IMG/VR virus record: IMGVR_UViG_3300037840_000486
Location: 1-40,387 of that record
Reading direction: 5' to 3' (one strand)
From: a virus
Length of the DNA stretch: 40,387 nucleotides
Shown one piece after another: positions 378-39,810 of the stretch. Within the stretch, counting starts at the first letter, position 1. Each line of letters starts with the position of its first letter. The position numbers were made by a program, and so were the translations under genes. The notes beneath the pieces were generated by a model. The model made no database searches, was not told where the DNA came from, and saw nothing but the letters and a program-made list of their open reading frames with translations.

Positions 378-406
378 TCATTATAGAAATGCTTTCAATT
401 TATTAA
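378..406. repeat. 29-bp direct repeat, copy 1 (gene-end boundary)
   Basis: Exact copy of 608-636. Read on the minus strand it encodes the final residues NKLKAFL, the stop TAA, and an ATG overlapping that stop. In this copy the ATG opens only a short frame antisense to the gene at 207-377, so it looks like a relic gene junction. Confidence 0.9.
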
Positions 407-611
407 TTCGTGCCAAATAATCAATCACCTCATCTACTTGCTGATCCGAAACGGGGTAAGCGCCCCCACAGTTGGTTAGACCTATGGTACGCAATAGACC
501 AGCACCGATGGCATCATCCGGCACCAGCAAATAACAGTCTTCGCCCATATACAAATCATCCAAGAACGCTATATGAAAGCGGTTTGCAACCTCTTGCAAT
601 TTAGTGCTCAT
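381..611 (-). CDS. Hypothetical 76-residue protein with KLKAFL tail
   Basis: The ATG at 611 overlaps the stop of the upstream gene as TAATG, so translation is probably coupled. The 76-residue product has one Cys and no membrane segment. Its last 20 residues look helical (VDEVIDYLARINKLKAFL) and closely resemble the end of the preceding gene (VVDNFDRLNKLKAFL), although the rest of the two proteins differs. The DNA for this tail lies in an exact 29-bp repeat. An opposite-strand frame at 410-604 is judged a shadow because it lacks operon context. Function unknown; it is the last gene of a leftward four-gene cluster. Confidence 0.65.
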   Translation of the reverse strand: MSTKLQEVANRFHIAFLDDLYMGEDCYLLVPDDAIGAGLLRTIGLTNCGGAYPVSDQQVDEVIDYLARINKLKAFL

Positions 612-636
612 TATAGAAATGCTTTCAATTTATTAA
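608..636. repeat. 29-bp direct repeat, copy 2 (gene-end boundary)
   Basis: Exact copy of 378-406, lying at the join of the genes at 611-940 and 381-611. It contains the KLKAFL codons, the TAA stop and the overlapping ATG of the next gene. Confidence 0.9.
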
Positions 637-940
637 GACGATCGAAATTATCAACAACTTGTCTGATCTCATCATCAGAAATGTTAAATAGTTTTTGTAG
701 ATTTATCAGTTTGCGATAATCTTTATCATGTGGACAATCGTCATCATCTCTTTCGATTAGATATGGCATATCACATTTAGCACAGGTAGTTTCATTATAT
801 GTGTCTAATATATAATCAGGCAGCGAACACTGACATCCATCACATAATGCATTATAAACATCATTAAAATGCCAATCACGATTAAATCTGCTCTCTATTT
901 CTGAATCATTTAATTCTATTTTACAATGTTCGCAATTCAT
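611..940 (-). CDS. Small zinc-ribbon-like protein with KLKAFL tail
   Basis: I start this gene at the ATG at 940, two bases after the stop of the upstream gene, giving 109 residues; the longer frame to 991 would overlap that gene heavily. Cys pairs near the start (CEHC), in the middle (CDGCQC) and after that (CAKC) suggest one or two zinc-binding ribbons. An acidic run (ERDDDDCPHDKD) and a helical C-terminus ending DRLNKLKAFL follow. The sequence around its start (GATTAATAATGAA) repeats that of the gene at 1149-1589. Role unknown; small zinc-ribbon proteins in phage early regions often bind nucleic acid or host proteins, which is inference here. Confidence 0.7.
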   Translation of the reverse strand: MNCEHCKIELNDSEIESRFNRDWHFNDVYNALCDGCQCSLPDYILDTYNETTCAKCDMPYLIERDDDDCPHDKDYRKLINLQKLFNISDDEIRQVVDNFDRLNKLKAFL

Positions 941-942
941 TA

Positions 943-1149
943 TTAATCGCCGAATGGTACATACTTCGTGCTCCAATTGTCCCCAATGCAATAAATATTA
1001 CCACAATGATTGTCATTGGGCTGACATTGACAAGTTAATTTATCGCTGCACTCAATGCATAATGAAAATAAAGAGCAAAAATCCCATTCATCTTCATCGG
1101 TTCGAATCAATCCGCAATGATCACATTGATCTTGATTATATCTATTCAT
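943..1149 (-). CDS. Small Cys-rich zinc-binding-like protein
   Basis: A 68-residue product with CDHC near residue 9, CIEC in the middle, CQC shortly after and further single Cys residues, a pattern expected of a small treble-clef or ribbon fold. The ATG at 1149 overlaps the upstream TAA (TAATG), and its own stop lies two bases before the next start, so it sits in a coupled leftward cluster. It lacks the KLKAFL tail of its neighbours and ends VPFGD. Function unknown. Confidence 0.65.
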   Translation of the reverse strand: MNRYNQDQCDHCGLIRTDEDEWDFCSLFSLCIECSDKLTCQCQPNDNHCGNIYCIGDNWSTKYVPFGD

Positions 1150-1589
1150 TAGACTGTCTCTTTGTTTAAGATTTTGGCAGCTTCTTGGAAAGAAAAATAT
1201 TCAATACAATAATCATTTGGATTATCCCCATCAAAACAAAAGTCTTCCACATTTACTTGCTGTTGCATGCATAAGATATTTCCATTACCCGGAATAGTTA
1301 AATCCGCACCCACATCATAAATAACTCCCGCATTCATCTGATACAGATAAGCATGATAATCAACTGCACCATTATTTGTTTTGGGAGACCAATCTTTCCA
1401 ATGCCAAATGCCAATTTTCCAATTATTAGCATGTTTTCTTTGCTGCATCTTAGCCAAGACTAAGAGGCAGATTTCACCACATTGTTTATTATAATGCATT
1501 AACCAATTATAATCATAATCATGATTATAAGAATATAATACATCTTTATAGATTTTATTATGTTTAGGTAGATTGGTTAATAATTTCAT
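1149..1589 (-). CDS. Hypothetical 146-residue protein, first gene of leftward cluster
   Basis: I choose the ATG at 1589 because GGAG lies a few bases upstream (GGAGATTAATAATG); the longer open frame to 1634 would run into the leader hairpin. The product is rich in Tyr, Asn and Trp and has no membrane segment. Residues around VDYHAYLYQMNAGVIYDVGADL resemble the way small globular domains such as papain-like or N-glutaminase folds present a Cys-His-Asp set (QCGEICLLVLAK, then YHAYLY, then DVGADL), but this is only a weak hint. It is expressed from the promoter at 1657-1703. Confidence 0.65.
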   Translation of the reverse strand: MKLLTNLPKHNKIYKDVLYSYNHDYDYNWLMHYNKQCGEICLLVLAKMQQRKHANNWKIGIWHWKDWSPKTNNGAVDYHAYLYQMNAGVIYDVGADLTIPGNGNILCMQQQVNVEDFCFDGDNPNDYCIEYFSFQEAAKILNKETV

Positions 1590-1621
1590 TATTAATCTCC
1601 AAATAGACAAATAGACAAATA

Positions 1622-1648
1622 CGAGCCGAAGCAATATGCTGGGGCTCG
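1622..1648 (-). promoter_or_regulatory. Leader hairpin at the 5' end of the leftward cluster transcript
   Basis: On the minus strand CGAGCC pairs with GGCTCG, and an inner AGCA pairs with TGCT, giving a stacked hairpin just after the predicted transcription start near 1650. A short direct repeat of AAATAGAC follows before the ribosome binding site. It may stabilise the mRNA or bind a regulator; it has no U-tract, so it is not an intrinsic terminator. Confidence 0.5.
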
Positions 1649-1656
1649 CATCTCAC

Positions 1657-1703
1657 ATTATATGCACGGTTTCGGGGGCGCGCCAGCTGGCATGCTTCTT
1701 GCC
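1657..1703 (-). promoter_or_regulatory. Promoter with 23-bp upstream element shared with 33569-33591
   Basis: TATAAT occupies 1662-1657 on the minus strand. Eighteen bases upstream begins a 23-bp element (1681-1703) that is 20/23 identical to 33569-33591, where TATCAT also follows at exactly 18 bases. The element holds a dyad, GGCA-N7-TGCC. Two leftward loci about 8 kb apart on the circle therefore share an upstream element and spacing. The conserved TGGCG end lies where a -35 box would be, so the dyad may bind an activator or repressor. Confidence 0.6.
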
Positions 1704-2306
1704 TCATCCCAATAAATTCTTATTCACCTTTTTTGGTAAATCCTCTATCACCACCAGATTAAATTTATCCATTAGTTTCCTCAACTCTGGGTGCTGATAG
1801 TGCTTGCCCTCTGGATCAATCTTACACTTTGGATTAGGATATTTATCTCTTAATCTGTGCAGGACCCAACACCAATGATATGGACTCAGCCAAACTCCCT
1901 CATATCCTCCCGCCTTAACCAGCGGGATTTTTTCTTTGTGAAAAAAGTCAAATGCATATTGATTAGAAGGAATTAAAAAACTACAGGGAGTTTCTTCTTC
2001 ATACATAAAATCAATACTCATCAGGAAAGGAACTTTTAGCTGATTAGCTAAGGCTATCTGGGCCTTCATGCCTGACCAAACTAATTCTCTCTTGGTTTTA
2101 CCATATCCCGACTTGTGATCTAAAATGGCTCTAACTACTGGTTCTCCGTTCTCATAATCATACTCATTACATAAATTCATGATATCTTCCCCATTGCTCA
2201 TAATCAGAACATCTATATCCGTTACATAACATTTAAAAAAGTAATGCCAGTAAGTCATGCTGTTATCAGTAAAGGTATTAGTATTAGCAGTAGAACTATA
2301 AGTCAT
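1704..2306 (-). CDS. Putative PD-(D/E)XK nuclease-like protein
   Basis: A 200-residue soluble protein. A hydrophobic strand carrying TDIDVLI (about residues 29-35) is followed about 30 residues later by AILDHKSG. This spacing of an Asp and a D-x-K set on a strand matches the PD-(D/E)XK nuclease pattern. Later, a helix with Gln and a strand (VPFLMSIDF) fit the rest of that fold. The assignment rests on motif reading only. A second ATG 16 codons in (MTYWHYFF) is an alternative start; neither has a clear ribosome binding site. It diverges from the HTH gene at 2403 and lies just upstream of the promoter of the 1589 cluster. Confidence 0.5.
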   Translation of the reverse strand: MTYSSTANTNTFTDNSMTYWHYFFKCYVTDIDVLIMSNGEDIMNLCNEYDYENGEPVVRAILDHKSGYGKTKRELVWSGMKAQIALANQLKVPFLMSIDFMYEEETPCSFLIPSNQYAFDFFHKEKIPLVKAGGYEGVWLSPYHWCWVLHRLRDKYPNPKCKIDPEGKHYQHPELRKLMDKFNLVVIEDLPKKVNKNLLG

Positions 2307-2402
2307 ATCTACATGATCTAATAGTAGCTAATCTATTCAGATTATTTTCGGTAATTATCTCTCTGTATATATACTACTTCCCCCTATAGATCCCCCATCG
2401 TT
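2307..2402. promoter_or_regulatory. Divergent intergenic region between 2306 (-) and 2403 (+)
   Basis: These 96 bases separate divergent genes and are AT-rich, with a TATATATACT stretch near 2367-2376 that could serve as a -10 box for the rightward gene. No convincing -35 box or operator could be fixed by eye. Confidence 0.3.
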
Positions 2403-3323
2403 ATGTCGAGATTTAGTTCGTTCAATTATGTGAAATATAAAGTCTATCAATATCGGATCATCCCCAATATGGCCAAACAACTACATAATGTCACCGACAC
2501 CATGACGTCCCGCGTCAAACGAACGCAAGTATATCTGCTGGAGTATCCTACCGAGCCCCAGATACTAACCGAACTTTGCGAGCAGCAGGAGAAGGATATA
2601 CTTATTTCGGAGGAGTTAAGCGAGCTGAACCTGCAGGCATATCATCGAATGCTACAAATTACCCCACTGACCCCCAAGCAACAAGCTATCCTGGATCTGA
2701 TGACGAATGGAGAGGATTTAACGCAGGTGGAAATAGGGAAACGATTAGGCATGCGACAAACTTCTGTTTTTAAGGCGATAAGGGGGAATAGTTATGGTAA
2801 ATGGATCCCAGAGAGTGGTTATGCTGGAGGGATGGGCAATAAGTTTATGAAATATGCCTTAATGGATAATACCTTTCGCAAACTGGTCTTATCTATTCAG
2901 GACATGGATCATCCCTCGGGGATGATGTATTATTTGGTGAGGAATTGGTTTCAGAATGAATTAAAATTTCTGGAGTGGGTCAAGACCGAATTAAATGAAA
3001 TGTACAAAATCCCCCAATGGAAATATCATCAGGTGATAGCCTCCTTTGAGAGGGGGCTGGCTAATTGTTATGCCTTATCCCAAGAATTCGAACTCAAAAA
3101 TCAAATTGTGGTCAAGATGAAAAAGGATTGGTGTCAAAAAAAGGGTATTAACCTCTTTCCTCTAACCGAAAGAAATCGTCAAGAAATCTGTCATGATTAT
3201 TTGAATGGGATGTCGACCAAACAAATCAAAGAGAAATATCATAGGAGTAATACCACTATTTATCAGATCTTAGAGGCAGCGGGTATTCCCCGAGGCAAAC
3301 AAGGTCGTAGCACGGTAGTTTGA
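2403..3323 (+). CDS. HTH regulator with sigma region 4-like domain (paralogue of 7898 gene)
   Basis: A 306-residue protein. Residues about 89-130 read LTPKQQAILDLM, then TQVEIGKRLGMRQTSVFKAI: the helix-turn-helix pattern of sigma region 4 and LuxR-type proteins. A second HTH sits at the C-terminus (about 256-300, MSTKQIKEKYHRSNTTIYQI), of resolvase/IS30 type. The first HTH and the following GN-x-Y and GG-x-x-x-K stretch align with the gene at 7898, so the two are paralogues, this one longer. I infer a phage transcription regulator. Start uncertain: ATG 2403 or ATG 2472. Its 3' end overlaps a leftward gene by 61 bases. Confidence 0.7.
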   Translation: MSRFSSFNYVKYKVYQYRIIPNMAKQLHNVTDTMTSRVKRTQVYLLEYPTEPQILTELCEQQEKDILISEELSELNLQAYHRMLQITPLTPKQQAILDLMTNGEDLTQVEIGKRLGMRQTSVFKAIRGNSYGKWIPESGYAGGMGNKFMKYALMDNTFRKLVLSIQDMDHPSGMMYYLVRNWFQNELKFLEWVKTELNEMYKIPQWKYHQVIASFERGLANCYALSQEFELKNQIVVKMKKDWCQKKGINLFPLTERNRQEICHDYLNGMSTKQIKEKYHRSNTTIYQILEAAGIPRGKQGRSTVV

Positions 3324-3481
3324 TACTTATTACAATTGCCACAACAGATAGTTTCCTCTACTACATAGTCTTCATATTGGGGGTCATGGAGCAAAACTGT
3401 TTTGCTAATCCACCAAGAGGTATTACGTTGGCAGTTTGGGCAGCTGTTGGGGATGGGATGATATGGTGGGAGTCGTTCCAT
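3263..3481 (-). CDS. Small zinc-ribbon protein overlapping the HTH gene tail to tail
   Basis: From ATG 3481 this is a 72-residue protein (MERLPPYHPIPN) with CPNC near residue 14 and CGNC about 35 residues later, a clear zinc-ribbon spacing. A longer GTG start at 3505 would lie inside the tRNA-like element, so I reject it. The ATG begins directly after the CCA end of that element. The last 20 codons are antisense to the end of the HTH gene at 2403-3323. No ribosome binding site is apparent. Function unknown; last gene of the long leftward operon. Confidence 0.6.
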   Translation of the reverse strand: MERLPPYHPIPNSCPNCQRNTSWWISKTVLLHDPQYEDYVVEETICCGNCNKYQTTVLRPCLPRGIPAASKI

Positions 3482-3618
3482 TGGTGGAGATAATGGGATT
3501 TGCACCCATAAACATCGACATAATTAATCCATTGTTACGATCAATGACTTACCTGTCAGATTCAGGCTTCTACATTTAATTATCTCTATGACCACTTGCT
3601 TTTAGTGGCTATATCCCC
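3482..3618 (-). tRNA. tRNA-like element: strong 3' half, unresolved 5' half
   Basis: On the minus strand the 3' end reads as tRNA: a 5-bp T stem ATGGG/CCCAT (3509-3505 and 3497-3493) with loop TGCAAAT, then TATCTCC (3492-3486), discriminator A and encoded CCA (3484-3482). Upstream, CATTG/CAATG encloses the loop ATCGTAA (3546-3530), a correct anticodon loop with U33 and A37, anticodon CGU. GGGGATA (3618-3612) pairs fully with TATCTCC, and AGAGATA (3587-3581) pairs at six of seven positions. Neither gives a normal D arm, and the total of 137 or 106 nt is too long. It may be a decayed tRNA, an attachment-site copy of a host tRNA 3' end, or another tRNA-like RNA. Confidence 0.45.
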
Positions 3619-3629
3619 GTTTCTTCATT

Positions 3630-3818
3630 TCACCAAAACGCCTTTAGATTTAGGTATCTAATAAATTCAGACTCAGTATAAGCAACATGTTTTAATATAT
3701 GAAGGTCTTGATAATATAAATAATCACAATCATGACATACATGACATACATCTTCTATATCATTATCTCTAATTAAGGTCCCCCGCCACATTTCATTGGT
3801 GCAAAATGGACAAAGCAT
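3630..3818 (-). CDS. Small zinc-ribbon protein with LKAFW tail
   Basis: A 62-residue product. CPFC at residues 3-6 and CHVCHDC about 25 residues later form a two-knuckle zinc ribbon. The C-terminus, YLNLKAFW, matches the tails of the genes at 3822, 3896, 381 and 611. The start at 3818 follows the stop of the 25-codon gene by three bases, with GGTGA just upstream acting as a possible ribosome binding site. Eight codons (MKKRGYSH) follow from an ATG at 3628, possibly a leader or nothing. Function unknown. Confidence 0.65.
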   Translation of the reverse strand: MLCPFCTNEMWRGTLIRDNDIEDVCHVCHDCDYLYYQDLHILKHVAYTESEFIRYLNLKAFW

Positions 3819-3821
3819 ATT

Positions 3822-3899
3822 TCACCAAAAGGCTTTCAATTTTTGCAATCGTTCATTTGGAGTAGCTATTATAATAAATGTATATTCATTCAACATCAT
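3822..3899 (-). CDS. 25-residue miniprotein with KLKAFW tail
   Basis: A very short frame, starting at ATGATG (3899 or 3896) that overlaps the stop of the upstream gene and ending at TGA 3824-3822. The product has a hydrophobic run (YTFIIIAT) and then RLQKLKAFW. I consider it real because it fills the gap between two coupled genes with overlapping start and proper spacing, and because it carries the same tail as its neighbours. It may instead be the relic of a longer gene of which only the ends remain. Confidence 0.5.
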   Translation of the reverse strand: MMLNEYTFIIIATPNERLQKLKAFW

Positions 3900-4216
3900 A
3901 AGAACGCCTTATTATTTAAGGCTTTTTCCACTTCATCCAAAGTCTTAAACTGATGTTCATCTAACAGATATCCAACTCCACCATTACTATCAGCATAATT
4001 CTTTAATGATAATGATCCATTTGCTTTATCTTTTAATTGTTCAAAACGTTGAGTTACTTTCAAACATTCAAAATAATGATTAACTTTTTGTTGAACTTGA
4101 TCAACATTAACGAATTCAAACATGATTGTTAATGATTTAATTAGTTCGACTACGTGGTCGGTAGCATTATTTTTAATGAATTGTATTTGTTCAGCTTCGG
4201 AAATTGGTTTATTCAT
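3896..4216 (-). CDS. Hypothetical helical protein with NKAFL tail
   Basis: A 106-residue, mostly helical, charged protein with no Cys pairs and no membrane segment. It ends VEKALNNKAFL, a variant of the tail found on four neighbours. The ATG at 4216 follows the upstream stop by one base; the stop overlaps the next start (TTATGATG). Function unknown. Confidence 0.65.
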   Translation of the reverse strand: MNKPISEAEQIQFIKNNATDHVVELIKSLTIMFEFVNVDQVQQKVNHYFECLKVTQRFEQLKDKANGSLSLKNYADSNGGVGYLLDEHQFKTLDEVEKALNNKAFL

Positions 4217-5471: not shown

Positions 5472-5589
5472 CTTGTTTCTCCTCATAACATTCTTGACAT
5501 AACATAATAAATTGATTGACATAAGTGTCATAGGTTTCGTAAAGTTGTTCGGTATATTCGCCGCAATGATCGCAGATACCATCATTCAT
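5458..5589 (-). CDS. 43-residue zinc-knuckle protein
   Basis: An ATG at 5589 overlaps the end of the helicase gene, and the frame runs to TAA 5460-5458. CDHC at residues 6-9 and CQEC about 24 residues later give a compact zinc-binding layout with an intervening Tyr-rich segment. Its end overlaps the start of the HTH gene by 14 bases, and the GAGGAG inside it serves that gene as ribosome binding site. Below usual gene-finder length but well supported by motif and overlaps. Confidence 0.6.
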   Translation of the reverse strand: MNDGICDHCGEYTEQLYETYDTYVNQFIMLCQECYEEKQDETN

Positions 5590-6928
5590 GGTTCACCCAT
5601 ACCTTGCGTAGTTCGCCATTAATTCTGTGGTTCGATTTTGACCAGCCCAGATTGCGCAAGATGCCAGCTAATCTGTAGGAATCTTTCATCCGTTGCTTCT
5701 CACGTGGAATATTAAAGCACTGAGTTAGCATGTCCGATATGATGATGTAACTCGGATGAGCCTGAGCAATCCATTCTATTACCTGATCGGTCCATACATC
5801 TTGATTACGGTAGTCATTCACATACTGGTTCATTAGCTCTTGGTCTTGTTCGTTCAGATAGTGAGTCTCGCCTTGCTTATAGGCAGCTACCGCCTGTGCC
5901 CAGAGTTGAGCACGCACCTTCTCAAACCTATCAGTATCGATCTTTCCCACGCTTACCACCCAGAAGCGACGATTGACGTTATCTGTTAAAAACTCGTCAT
6001 TATTAGTCGAGCCTGTAAACACCACCTGGCGCGGATACTGCTGATTACCTCTCCCATACGCCTTGCGGAAGTCATCTACTTGGCGCGACAAGAAGGCTTT
6101 GATGGAATCAGCTTCCTTCTTTTTGAGAGAGTAAAATTCTCCAAACTCCATAATCCACTTTCCCTGAATAGTCTCTTGGCTATCCTTGTGATCAATATCG
6201 ATCTGTTGGTCGGAAAACCAGTCATCCATTACCGCTAGCTTGCGCAAAAAAGTAGATTTGCGGCAACCTTGATCCCCCTTTAGAACTAATATGGTGTCAA
6301 CTTTACAACCTGGCTCAAAAGCGCGAGCGACGCATGAAACAAGGAACTTAAGTAGCATTCGCTGGACTAGCGCCTGATGATCCGAATCTTGGTAGGCCAC
6401 CTCTAGACATTCCGCTAAGTCGGGAATATAGTCTTTCTGGTCCCACGTCAGAGAGTTTAGATAATTCCTAACTGGATGAAAGGCATTCTGCGAGGCTACT
6501 TGCTCAGTAGCCCTAATGATATCTGGCTCACTAAATACTAAATCTAACTTGTCGCTAATGGTGCAGCGGATGTTGGTATAATCCACATCTTGCAAACGTT
6601 TACCCCTGTAATAGACACAGTGATCTAACTCATTCATTTTGAGGCTACCATGGAAAGCCGCGTGCTCCGACAGAATGCGTTGCAGGTTGTCAGGCGTTTT
6701 TTTGATCTTGCCCTTACTACTGAGTTTAAGCGGAGCAGTGGATGTGCTTGGGTTCTGCTGGGACCTCAAGAATTCGGACACATATTGGTTAGCTTGGTCC
6801 CTAACCTCATCGTCTAAATCTTCGCGATCGATGAATGCCTGGCACTGGTACTCTTTTGCCTTTAGTGAGGAGGTAGAGTTTAGATAGTCTTTAAGTTTAT
6901 TGATTATTGGTTGTGGTAGATTGTTCAT
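5582..6928 (-). CDS. VapE/VirE-family replication helicase
   Basis: A 448-residue P-loop ATPase. Walker A is GDQGCRKST at 218-226, Walker B lies in KWIMEFGEF at 257-265, and FTGSTNNDEFLTDNVNRRFW at about 304-323 is the sensor/arginine-finger region typical of the virulence-associated protein E family. The first 120 residues show no primase zinc finger or TOPRIM motif, so this is a helicase-type initiator without a fused primase. It is the only replication enzyme recognised in the genome and sits about 350 bp from candidate origin iterons. The host presumably supplies polymerase. Confidence 0.88.
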   Translation of the reverse strand: MNNLPQPIINKLKDYLNSTSSLKAKEYQCQAFIDREDLDDEVRDQANQYVSEFLRSQQNPSTSTAPLKLSSKGKIKKTPDNLQRILSEHAAFHGSLKMNELDHCVYYRGKRLQDVDYTNIRCTISDKLDLVFSEPDIIRATEQVASQNAFHPVRNYLNSLTWDQKDYIPDLAECLEVAYQDSDHQALVQRMLLKFLVSCVARAFEPGCKVDTILVLKGDQGCRKSTFLRKLAVMDDWFSDQQIDIDHKDSQETIQGKWIMEFGEFYSLKKKEADSIKAFLSRQVDDFRKAYGRGNQQYPRQVVFTGSTNNDEFLTDNVNRRFWVVSVGKIDTDRFEKVRAQLWAQAVAAYKQGETHYLNEQDQELMNQYVNDYRNQDVWTDQVIEWIAQAHPSYIIISDMLTQCFNIPREKQRMKDSYRLAGILRNLGWSKSNHRINGELRKVWVNHE

Positions 6929-7650: not shown

Positions 7651-7852
7651 AAGTCGAAATGGAATTTGGAGTAATTACGATGCTGGTTATTGTCCCAGTA
7701 TTATCATATATATCAGCATATCGCCTGCCAAAGAGATTGGGCCCCCAAAAGCATTGAGAGGATAGCTCTTGACTAACTATCCTCTCAATAAGAATTTCCT
7801 CCCCAGGAAATAAAACACAATAGATTGACAACCTTTTCCTCTTATGCCCCAT
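7649..7852 (-). CDS. Possible leftward small gene ending at a terminator
   Basis: A 67-residue frame from ATG 7852 (MGHKRKRLSIYCVLFPGEE) ends exactly where the terminator at 7622-7650 begins. That would explain why leftward terminators exist here. Against it: no ribosome binding site, no recognised motif, and a 13-bp inverted repeat inside the coding part. It could equally be promoter DNA of the rightward operon that happens to be open. Confidence 0.3.
   Translation of the reverse strand: MGHKRKRLSIYCVLFPGEEILIERIVSQELSSQCFWGPNLFGRRYADIYDNTGTITSIVITPNSIST
7753..7789. promoter_or_regulatory. 13-bp perfect inverted repeat upstream of rightward operon
   Basis: ATTGAGAGGATAG and CTATCCTCTCAAT are separated by 11 bases. 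No U-tract of note follows on the plus strand; GCTTTT follows on the minus strand. It lies about 110 bases upstream of the rightward regulator gene and could be an operator, a third terminator or an RNA hairpin. Confidence 0.5.
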
Positions 7853-7897
7853 TATGCATTTTTCTTTCACCATCTGGGCATATTATCTCCTGTAGTT

Positions 7898-8449
7898 ATG
7901 AGCGCAACAGAGAAAAATCTCGATGATACCAGAGGAAGGGTCAATTCCTATCAATGGAAATTTCATGAATCTACCTATAGTCCATTAGAATGGGATACCA
8001 TCGAGTCTCTCCAATTCCTCACCTCCATCCACACCCTGCGTTCCGATTATGAATATCTTCTGGATATGGATGATCAACTCCATACTGCTTTCCATTTCCT
8101 CTTTACTCATCCCATCCTCACTAAACATCAACAACGTGTGCTCTTCCTCCTCTCCCAATCGCTCTCCCAAGTAGAAATGGCCAAATTATTCAATTGTAAT
8201 CAAACTTCTATTCATAAAGCTCTGTATGGCAATTTAACCTATCAAATTATCAATGGTCAAAAGACCTCTTTCTTATATGGAGGAATTAAAACTAAACTAA
8301 TTAAATTAGTCAAGCAATCTTTTGAAATTAAATCAATTATGAAAGAAATGTCCAATTACGATACCACAGGATGTCGTTTGCCTTATTATCAATCTTTAAG
8401 GAGACATTGTTTTCATTCATTTAGGGAGTTTGAGCAATGGATCCAATGA
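7898..8449 (+). CDS. HTH regulator with sigma region 4-like domain (paralogue of 2403 gene)
   Basis: First gene of the rightward operon, 183 residues from ATG 7898 (MSATEKN) or 201 from ATG 7844; neither has a clear ribosome binding site, and the shorter start avoids the leftward frame. The segment LTKHQQRVLFLLSQSLSQVEMAKLF, then NQTSIHKALYGN, parallels LTPKQQAILDLM and RQTSVFKAIRGN of the gene at 2403. Both continue with an aromatic residue, a GG and a basic helix. The C-terminal HTH of the longer paralogue is missing here. As an HTH protein at the head of the long rightward operon, it is a candidate activator of middle or late transcription. Confidence 0.65.
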   Translation: MSATEKNLDDTRGRVNSYQWKFHESTYSPLEWDTIESLQFLTSIHTLRSDYEYLLDMDDQLHTAFHFLFTHPILTKHQQRVLFLLSQSLSQVEMAKLFNCNQTSIHKALYGNLTYQIINGQKTSFLYGGIKTKLIKLVKQSFEIKSIMKEMSNYDTTGCRLPYYQSLRRHCFHSFREFEQWIQ

Positions 8450-28077: not shown

Positions 28078-28346
28078 CGCAGACTATAAAACCTTGTTTT
28101 ACCGTTAGCGTATCTCCTCCTCAATTACCTCCTATTTTTGGAGGCTTGAGTGCAACAATCTCTATTGGATTATCGGTTCCACCCTTAGCTATTCCTTGTT
28201 GTCCTTTGTCTATTCCATTATCTCCATTACCGAGTTTACCGCTTACTATTCCTGGACTCAATATGGCCATAGCTACTCTTAACGCCGCTTTGAATAGTGC
28301 TTTTAGTTCATTGTCTCAAATACAAATACCCACCTGCCCAAAATGA
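28074..28346 (+). CDS. Pro-rich small baseplate-associated protein
   Basis: A 90-residue, hydrophobic, Pro-rich protein (FTVSVSPPQLPPIFGGLSAT, then CCPLSIPLSPLPSLPL) with four Cys and no membrane-helix pattern. It overlaps both neighbours by four bases. Its position next to the spike gene and its repeated IP/LP spacing suggest a tip- or hub-associated structural part. No family recognised. Confidence 0.55.
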   Translation: MTQTIKPCFTVSVSPPQLPPIFGGLSATISIGLSVPPLAIPCCPLSIPLSPLPSLPLTIPGLNMAIATLNAALNSAFSSLSQIQIPTCPK

Positions 28347-28642
28347 CTATTGTAAAATTATATCAACATACTATTACTCATCAAAATGGAGGTTTACATG
28401 CTGAGAAGCATCCTGCCATGATGCATACAGATTATCAGGAATGGTCTCTCAATGGTGTTTATCATCGTGAGGATGGGCCCGCTCGTTTATTTAGAGTAGC
28501 TCCTGATGGTAAAAAATATGTTTTAGAATGGTGGCAAAATGGCAAATTTATCCTCTCTGATATTTTACCTCTCGATGTTTTTGAGAAATATTGGTTTAAT
28601 GGTGTTGTGCAACCTGATCACATAATTGGGCAAAATAAATGA
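28343..28642 (+). CDS. MORN-like repeat protein inside the baseplate operon
   Basis: A 99-residue protein with WSLNGVYHREDGPARL (about 34-49), EWWQNGKF and YWFNGVVQ: the W-x-x-NG-x-x-HREDGPA repeat seen in many virus and phage proteins, related to MORN or toxin_YwqK repeats. It overlaps both neighbouring baseplate genes by four bases. The function of this repeat in phages is not established. It is an unusual item within a conserved baseplate order. Confidence 0.65.
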   Translation: MTIVKLYQHTITHQNGGLHAEKHPAMMHTDYQEWSLNGVYHREDGPARLFRVAPDGKKYVLEWWQNGKFILSDILPLDVFEKYWFNGVVQPDHIIGQNK

Positions 28643-39050: not shown

Positions 39051-39083
39051 ATATAATGCATGGAGTTGATCCATGCATTATAT
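39051..39083 (+). promoter_or_regulatory. 13-bp hairpin burying the start codon of the GIY-YIG gene
   Basis: ATATAATGCATGG (39051-39063) pairs perfectly with CCATGCATTATAT (39071-39083) around a 7-base loop. The ATG at 39073-39075 lies wholly in the right arm, and half of the GGAG ribosome binding site is in the left arm. Start sequestration by hairpins is known for T-even homing endonucleases. A preceding AACAGC/GCTGTT stem (39029-39047) may be a terminator of the adhesin message. Confidence 0.72.
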
Positions 39084-39810
39084 TTACAAAATTACTAACA
39101 TTAGAAATAACAAGATTTACATCGGACAGTCGAAGGAACCTCGCAAACGCTGGTACGAGCACAAAAGACTGGCGGCTAGCCCACAGCCAAAATTAGTTAT
39201 CCAGCGAGCACTCAAAAAATACGGCAACGACGCTTTTGAATTCGAAGTCATTGCGAGCTGTCGAACCGCAGATGATGCGGATGCGACAGAAATTGCCATG
39301 ATCGCACAGTACCAATCTAATAATAATATATTTGGTTATAATATTGCTTCTGGCGGAAGATCACCGCGATGGAGTATATCCATGAGGCAGAAGCTAGTCA
39401 ATTATTACAAGGACCATCCAGAGCGTAGAGCCGAACTTCGAAGGCGTGCTCTAACAAACGAATCTATTCGTCATAATCAGTTCAAACGTGGACATTACAC
39501 ATGGAACAAGAATCTTAAAGGCATTCATCTAAATCCCGCTAATGAGTTTCAGCCAGGCATGCACCATTCTCTCGCTACAGAATTTAAACCAGGAGAACAC
39601 CCATCTCCAGCAACGGAAATTAAGAAGAATCAGCGATTGTCTCCCGAAACTGAATTCAAAAAGGGTCATATTCCTGCCAACAAAAAACTTACCACTCAGC
39701 AAGAGCAAGAAATCTTAACCAAATGGCAAAATGGTCAATCCAAACGTTCTCTGGCCAGAGAATACAAGATCGATCGATCTTCCATTCAACGAATCACAGA
39801 TAAAGGATAA
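39073..39810 (+). CDS. GIY-YIG homing endonuclease
   Basis: A 245-residue free-standing endonuclease. HYIYKITN at 2-9 and IYIGQS at 15-20 are the GIY and YIG strands; R26 or R24 and E73 (DATEIAMI) are catalytic candidates, and GYNIASGG follows at 88-95. Residues about 145-215 contain four or five copies of a short motif (TEFKPGEHPS, TEIKKNQRLS, TEFKKGHIPA), a DNA-binding linker. The C-terminus (about 215-245) is an HTH (SKRSLAREYKIDRSSIQRI). All catalytic landmarks are present, so it could be active. It interrupts the passage from fibre genes to membrane genes. Confidence 0.85.
   Translation: MHYIYKITNIRNNKIYIGQSKEPRKRWYEHKRLAASPQPKLVIQRALKKYGNDAFEFEVIASCRTADDADATEIAMIAQYQSNNNIFGYNIASGGRSPRWSISMRQKLVNYYKDHPERRAELRRRALTNESIRHNQFKRGHYTWNKNLKGIHLNPANEFQPGMHHSLATEFKPGEHPSPATEIKKNQRLSPETEFKKGHIPANKKLTTQQEQEILTKWQNGQSKRSLAREYKIDRSSIQRITDKG

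Follow-up and report, generated by a model that had tools for sequence, protein, structure and literature searches.

Why should several small phage proteins that differ over much of their length end in the same few amino acids? The question is raised by IMG/VR virus record IMGVR_UViG_3300037840_000486, a phage genome of 40,387 bases with tail sheath, portal, terminase and VapE genes; this whole stretch is the window referred to below. A preliminary description made from its letters alone had pointed to five genes that close on a KLKAFL/LKAFW-like tail, and had offered two explanations, a boundary sequence reused in the exchange of gene cassettes or a peptide that works as a tag. The second is well supported by sequence comparison and the first is not supported as a general cause: the peptide is conserved while its codons drift, it sits on different bodies, and the same tail recurs in other phages. 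Its role we infer, and we give a probability of about 60% to the reading that it is a C-terminal helical short linear motif of about 11 residues, serving as a phage-lineage-specific docking or sorting label for a common partner.

Five tails in one phage genome

Gene calls in the window are mechanical open reading frames (ORFs), and there is no sign of stop-codon reassignment, TAG serving as a stop. All five tails are present on the minus strand, ending KLKAFL, KLKAFL, LKAFW, KLKAFW and NKAFL, and the exact 29-bp repeat reported for the first two is real:

381-611, minus strand: 76-residue protein, tail ...YLARINKLKAFL, tag codons 384-401, stop 381-383
611-940, minus strand: 109-residue Cys-rich protein, tail ...NFDRLNKLKAFL, tag codons 614-631, stop 611-613
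3630-3818, minus strand: 62-residue Cys-rich (zinc-ribbon-like) protein, tail ...FIRYLNLKAFW, tag 3633-3647
3822-3899, minus strand: predicted 25-residue mini-ORF, hardly longer than the tag helix, MMLNEYTFIIIATPNERLQKLKAFW, tag 3825-3842
3896-4216, minus strand: 106-residue protein, tail ...DEVEKALNNKAFL, tag 3899-3913, stop overlapping the next ATG
378-406, no strand assigned: first copy of the exact 29-bp repeat, within a 47-nt pair (378-424 and 608-654) of 87% identity
608-636, no strand assigned: second copy of the repeat, within the same 87% pair

A degenerate DNA pattern for [KR]AF, one further residue and a stop matches five times in the whole record, each time at one of these gene ends; across the 40,387 bases neither its plus strand nor a reversed control gives any match. 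The best-scoring C-terminal residue triple, K at -4, A at -3 and F at -2, closes 4 of 56 window ORFs against 0.007 expected (p 1e-10), an enrichment reached by none of 100 residue-shuffled and none of 100 pseudo-end nulls, so chance does not explain the window tails. The looser ending [KR]AFx gives 4 observed against 0.03 expected.

The 76-residue protein matches no Pfam or PHROG family and all Pfam matches of the 62-residue protein are below threshold, while the other two full-length proteins have tagged matches: the 109-residue protein matches a tagged 160-residue protein of a 447 kb phage (phmmer 3e-4), and the 106-residue protein weakly matches a tagged 78-residue protein of another record, G008 (3e-3). 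A search of IMG/VR with VapE and the 109-residue protein found no close relatives of the window.

The bodies were said to differ along their length, which is so in general, but the first two proteins are alike over their last ~32 residues (44% identity), well beyond the six of the tail, and this pair was therefore copied locally as DNA. The tails were also said to run directly into the next start codon, which is the case for three of the five; the ATG after the tail at 381 opens a 20-codon ORF that overlaps a gene on the other strand, that after the tail at 3630 an 8-codon ORF, and neither is a credible gene. Nor does the DNA form given for the second W tail stand, since the actual continuation is GGTGAAATATG, not GGTGAAATG.

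A conserved peptide on many bodies

About 174 small proteins (median 95 residues) in 32 uncultured phage records end in this tail, counts that are minima because the scans demanded exact patterns. NKLKAFL followed by a stop was found in 13 places in IMG/VR, and in four of these it closes an ORF of ~100-150 residues, each time with a different body. The four phage records concerned, of 55 to 448 kb, hold further copies and no match to the reversed pattern: 46 [KR]AFx ends among 495 sampled ORFs of the 448 kb phage against 0.08 expected, 11 against 0.00 in the 55 kb phage, and 7 against 0.09 and 2 against 0.06 in the other two. KLKAFW before a stop added 71 stretches, many with several tagged genes, and a third pattern (K at -9, KLKAFL and a stop) lay at the ends of ORFs of at least 45 residues in 18 of 28 matches. 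The tag is placed exactly at the C-terminus in every case; the N-termini of the window and of G001, a 55 kb phage, show no enrichment.

The tag is restricted to certain phage lineages. Fourteen annotated phage records, named isolates and uncultured huge phages, gave 0-2 pattern matches each, and the three inspected, in phage G and Salicola phage SCTP-2, are not gene ends. Sampled stretches of SCTP-2, Atu_ph07 and the 484 kb LR756508 show no comparable C-terminal enrichment, tblastn of the tagged families against named phages returned either nothing or untagged homologues of one repeat family, HREDGPA, and in cellular genomes none of the 118 KLKAFW-stop matches listed is a convincing gene end, these being chance. 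The earlier remark that no described family has this tail held within the libraries searched; in the literature we found no paper on it, the peptide strings matching only unrelated words in the papers listed and topic searches turning up no such tag.

The LKAF core first described is correct but too short, as the motif extends upstream. In 119 nonredundant tails, chosen on residues -5 to -1 with K and R both allowed, the pattern reads hydrophobic at -11, K/R at -9, hydrophobic at -8, K at -6, L/M/I at -5, K at -4, A at -3, F at -2 and L/W/I at the end, or in short about [KR]xxKLKAF[LWI]. Positions outside the selection carry 1.16 (-11), 2.36 (-9), 1.33 (-8) and 2.47 bits (-6), and -9 is K or R in 97 tails. 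At position -4 there are 109 K and 10 R, a preference more specific than mere charge; A stands at -3 in 102 of the tails, and L, W and I account for most of the final residues.

The bodies do not follow suit. With the last ten residues removed, 155 tagged proteins fall into 81 BLAST clusters, 66 of them singletons (blastp 1e-3), so by this measure they are mostly unrelated and do not align as the tails do, as those of simple tandem duplicates would. Plain tandem duplication looks different in phage G, where YEIxY tails are shared by homologous bodies; this duplication control (L291:41885-43668, the gp102-gp107 region) comprises six tandem paralogues. Only a handful of 105 tagged proteins scanned match Pfam, PHROG or PADLOC, each family being represented by a single member.

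The codons beneath the tag allow the peptide to be told from a DNA- or RNA-level element, that is, a recombination boundary or a ribosome-binding or translation-coupling site that encodes the peptide only incidentally. Such an element would suit the exact 29-bp repeat, which takes in the next ATG, and the overlap of the following ATG with the stop in 61 of 174 cases (39 at -4, 22 at -1). However, the remaining tails have no overlapping start, and start-stop coupling thus accounts for only a minority. The tag's alanine codons make use of all four forms, with a wobble entropy of 1.87 bits against 1.83 in the bodies, and there is no AAG/AAA shift (p 0.15), AAG being the codon that would give a Shine-Dalgarno-like AAGG. 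Furthermore, positions -9 and -6 are conserved as amino acids, and two window tails precede no credible gene. We consider this explanation very improbable. In homologous pairs across phages mean tag identity is 0.89 against 0.47 for the bodies, a comparison biased upward because the proteins were chosen by their tag, and the tag codons of the same pairs show 58 synonymous and 15 nonsynonymous changes. Synonymous drift beneath a conserved peptide, which the preliminary description had named as support for a tag, is present.

The tag is also separable from the body. When bodies alone were used in BLAST, homologues within tag-bearing phages nearly all kept the tag, exactly or in a similar form (KLKIFL, KLRTFW, KLKIFW), whereas homologues in Atu_ph07, in Celeribacter phage P12053L and in the window itself have other ends and no tag. 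The last of these is an internal control:

28343-28642, plus strand: untagged 99-residue homologue of the MORN-like LKAFW proteins, with the HREDGPA motif, ending ...HIIGQNK; phmmer 3e-12 and 7e-10 to tagged proteins of two other records (G009 and G004)

In the 642 kb phage LR756502 a homologue ends HRDYQIKNILD, which resembles that phage's own frequent tail. Since homologous bodies elsewhere lack the tag or carry a different one, we attribute the label to the phage lineage, or to its host, and not to what the protein itself does. Codon drift and separability together indicate a selected peptide tag in place of a cassette boundary; local DNA copying still explains the 29-bp identity of the adjacent pair.

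Candidate roles for the tail

HREDGPA repeats form the largest body family. AlphaFold2 (AF2) models it as MORN-like beta hairpins (predicted local distance difference test score, pLDDT, 95), with the tag in the helix that comes after them; untagged MORN-like homologues exist, so the tag is no part of the MORN family. Tandem arrays of these proteins, each gene ending [KR]LKAFW, occur at L114:7580-9790 (8 genes) and in the 91 kb G009 (24 pattern matches), and at L066:4664-5152 two tagged units lie in one ORF, the first tag (KLKAFF) being internal, as if a stop had been lost. A second modelled family is predicted to consist of helices only, the tag closing the last one, in a model of moderate confidence (pLDDT 70). 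In the models, two families that differ in fold both have the tag in a helix at the end of the chain.

If the tail is a docking or sorting label, its putative common partner would recognize the free C-terminus and a lysine/phenylalanine face, and would gather at a single site or machine the tagged accessory proteins, whose genes, where mapped, lie near those for replication. Several points weigh against this. The body-only test is small and leans largely on one family. Because the tag itself served to find the tagged set, conservation among tagged homologues alone would be partly circular. The bodies are short and fast-evolving and can be homologous without BLAST similarity, and some may be distant paralogues. 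Finally, a search for a protein-coding gene shared by every tag-bearing record found none, which suggests that any reader is encoded by the host or has diverged beyond recognition. Of the window's genes, the one most widely shared (39073-39810) matches ORFs that we take to be GIY-YIG-like endonucleases and was not taken as a common reader.

A strict C-terminal position and a nonpolar ending are also what a degron would show, its C-terminus being read by an AAA+ protease of host or phage (ClpXP, Lon, FtsH or similar) to keep early accessory proteins short-lived. Basic residues, then A and a hydrophobic residue, make the tail reminiscent of the MuA-type ClpX signal, and SsrA and MuA-type degrons are likewise short C-terminal peptides that act independently of the body. 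Unlike SsrA, however, the tag is encoded in the gene and confined to phage lineages, and it ends mostly in L, W or I after KAF, not in LAA. The fixed K at -4 and the K/R at -9 exceed the needs of an ssrA-like signal, and the absence of the tag from cellular gene ends among the matches listed, and from the other phages checked, is unlike a general host degron. We regard a degron as unlikely.

The nearest precedent by analogy is the capsid targeting sequence (CTS) of T4. The internal proteins of T-even phages are diverse defence proteins that have only a conserved terminal targeting sequence in common (PMC3012670), and the tagged proteins have the same architecture: one short terminal peptide, separable from the body, on small and highly diverse phage proteins (here 81 clusters in 155). 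The tail could then be a C-terminal counterpart, its bearers loaded into the head and injected along with the DNA, and small size and the lack of known families suit injected counter-defence proteins. In T4 the CTS stands at the N-terminus, where the prohead protease cleaves it (PMC5694885), whereas the tag is C-terminal and of different sequence. Genomic position also bears on this reading, and two neighbours define it in the window:

5582-6928, minus strand: VapE-like replication gene (Pfam PF05272, 1.5e-71), sharing its minus-strand block with the tagged genes
2403-3323, plus strand: helix-turn-helix (HTH)/sigma-region-4-like regulator with a group of tagged genes on either side (Pfam Sigma70_r4, 2.6e-8)

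In the window every tagged gene belongs to the minus-strand block that contains VapE, apart from the structural genes and opposite to them, and those of G001 lie among DnaB- and sigma-factor-like genes. Such placement near replication and regulatory genes supports action inside the cell. A homologue of the regulator is found near tagged genes in two further tag-bearing phages (G007 and G011), and the window holds a second HTH/sigma-region-4-like protein (7844-8449) related to the first. Capsid loading is further weakened by LR756502, which has a separate N-terminal tag that we take to be T4-like and that never occurs together with its C-terminal tail. Overall it seems to us somewhat more doubtful than a degron.

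Both are to be preferred to a membrane-targeting amphipathic helix of the kind that ends MinD or FtsA, as they are to a DNA-level boundary. The tail shares with those helices an amphipathic basic C-terminal character (hydrophobic at -11, -8, -5, -2 and -1, basic at -9, -6 and -4), and the spaced hydrophobics with lysines, the bulky F-W/L end and the terminal helix of the AF2 models would suit lipid binding. But the near-exclusive K at -4, the fixed A at -3 and the exact distance to the C-terminus exceed its needs: the tag is specific in sequence where MinD and FtsA helices are conserved by character, K and R are not freely interchanged, and the bodies are many. A membrane helix is accordingly improbable. 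With the PIP box and the beta-clamp motif the tail shares a short hydrophobic/aromatic make-up, often found at protein ends; it has no conserved Q at the first motif position (here -8, taken by L, Y, I or F in 88 of 119 tails, with Q outside the eight commonest residues) and its basic residues are fixed. Clamp-binding and SSB-tip-like readings were ruled out on sequence.

Possible terminal labels in large phages

Other phages show terminal sequences of a comparable kind. In LR756502 (L274 and L289) a C-terminal tail, RDxKLxxLGI or KLxEIL, closes 47 of 187 sampled ORFs with 46 body clusters, and an N-terminal MK[HY]LKxYKIFES, which we presume to resemble the T4 capsid targeting signal, opens 36 of the 187. 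No ORF of the 187 has both (Fisher p 1e-5), and this mutual exclusion suggests two different addresses. The 735 kb LR756501 has 109 occurrences of DPYGEE[DEN]W, C-terminal and internal (for example L290:29681-48781), against none in 12 other large phage records, and several of its DPYGEE proteins start M[IL]KxFKxF. In G001 a second tail class, [KR][LIV]K[TN][LYW]xxFS, lies on a tandem ORF array (L036:790-11409) that adjoins the LKAFL class and in which several ORFs have CxxC pairs.

A wider and more tentative proposal, which we hold at somewhat less than even odds, is that some phages, notably large ones, run a protein-sorting code, in which lineage-specific terminal labels on scores of unrelated accessory proteins are swapped between lineages and read by a dedicated receptor. 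LKAF[LW] would then be one such code, the RDxKLxxLGI and MK[HY]LKxYKIFES sequences would be two more within LR756502, and DPYGEE may be another in the 735 kb phage.

Because nearly all tagged proteins are without a known family, the tag offers the sole way into a large part of phage dark matter. Proteins that bear it probably share a fate, and a single partner, whether receptor, compartment or protease, could serve dozens of them. If the tail is indeed an address label, portable 11-residue tags of this kind would be tools to steer proteins within infected bacteria.

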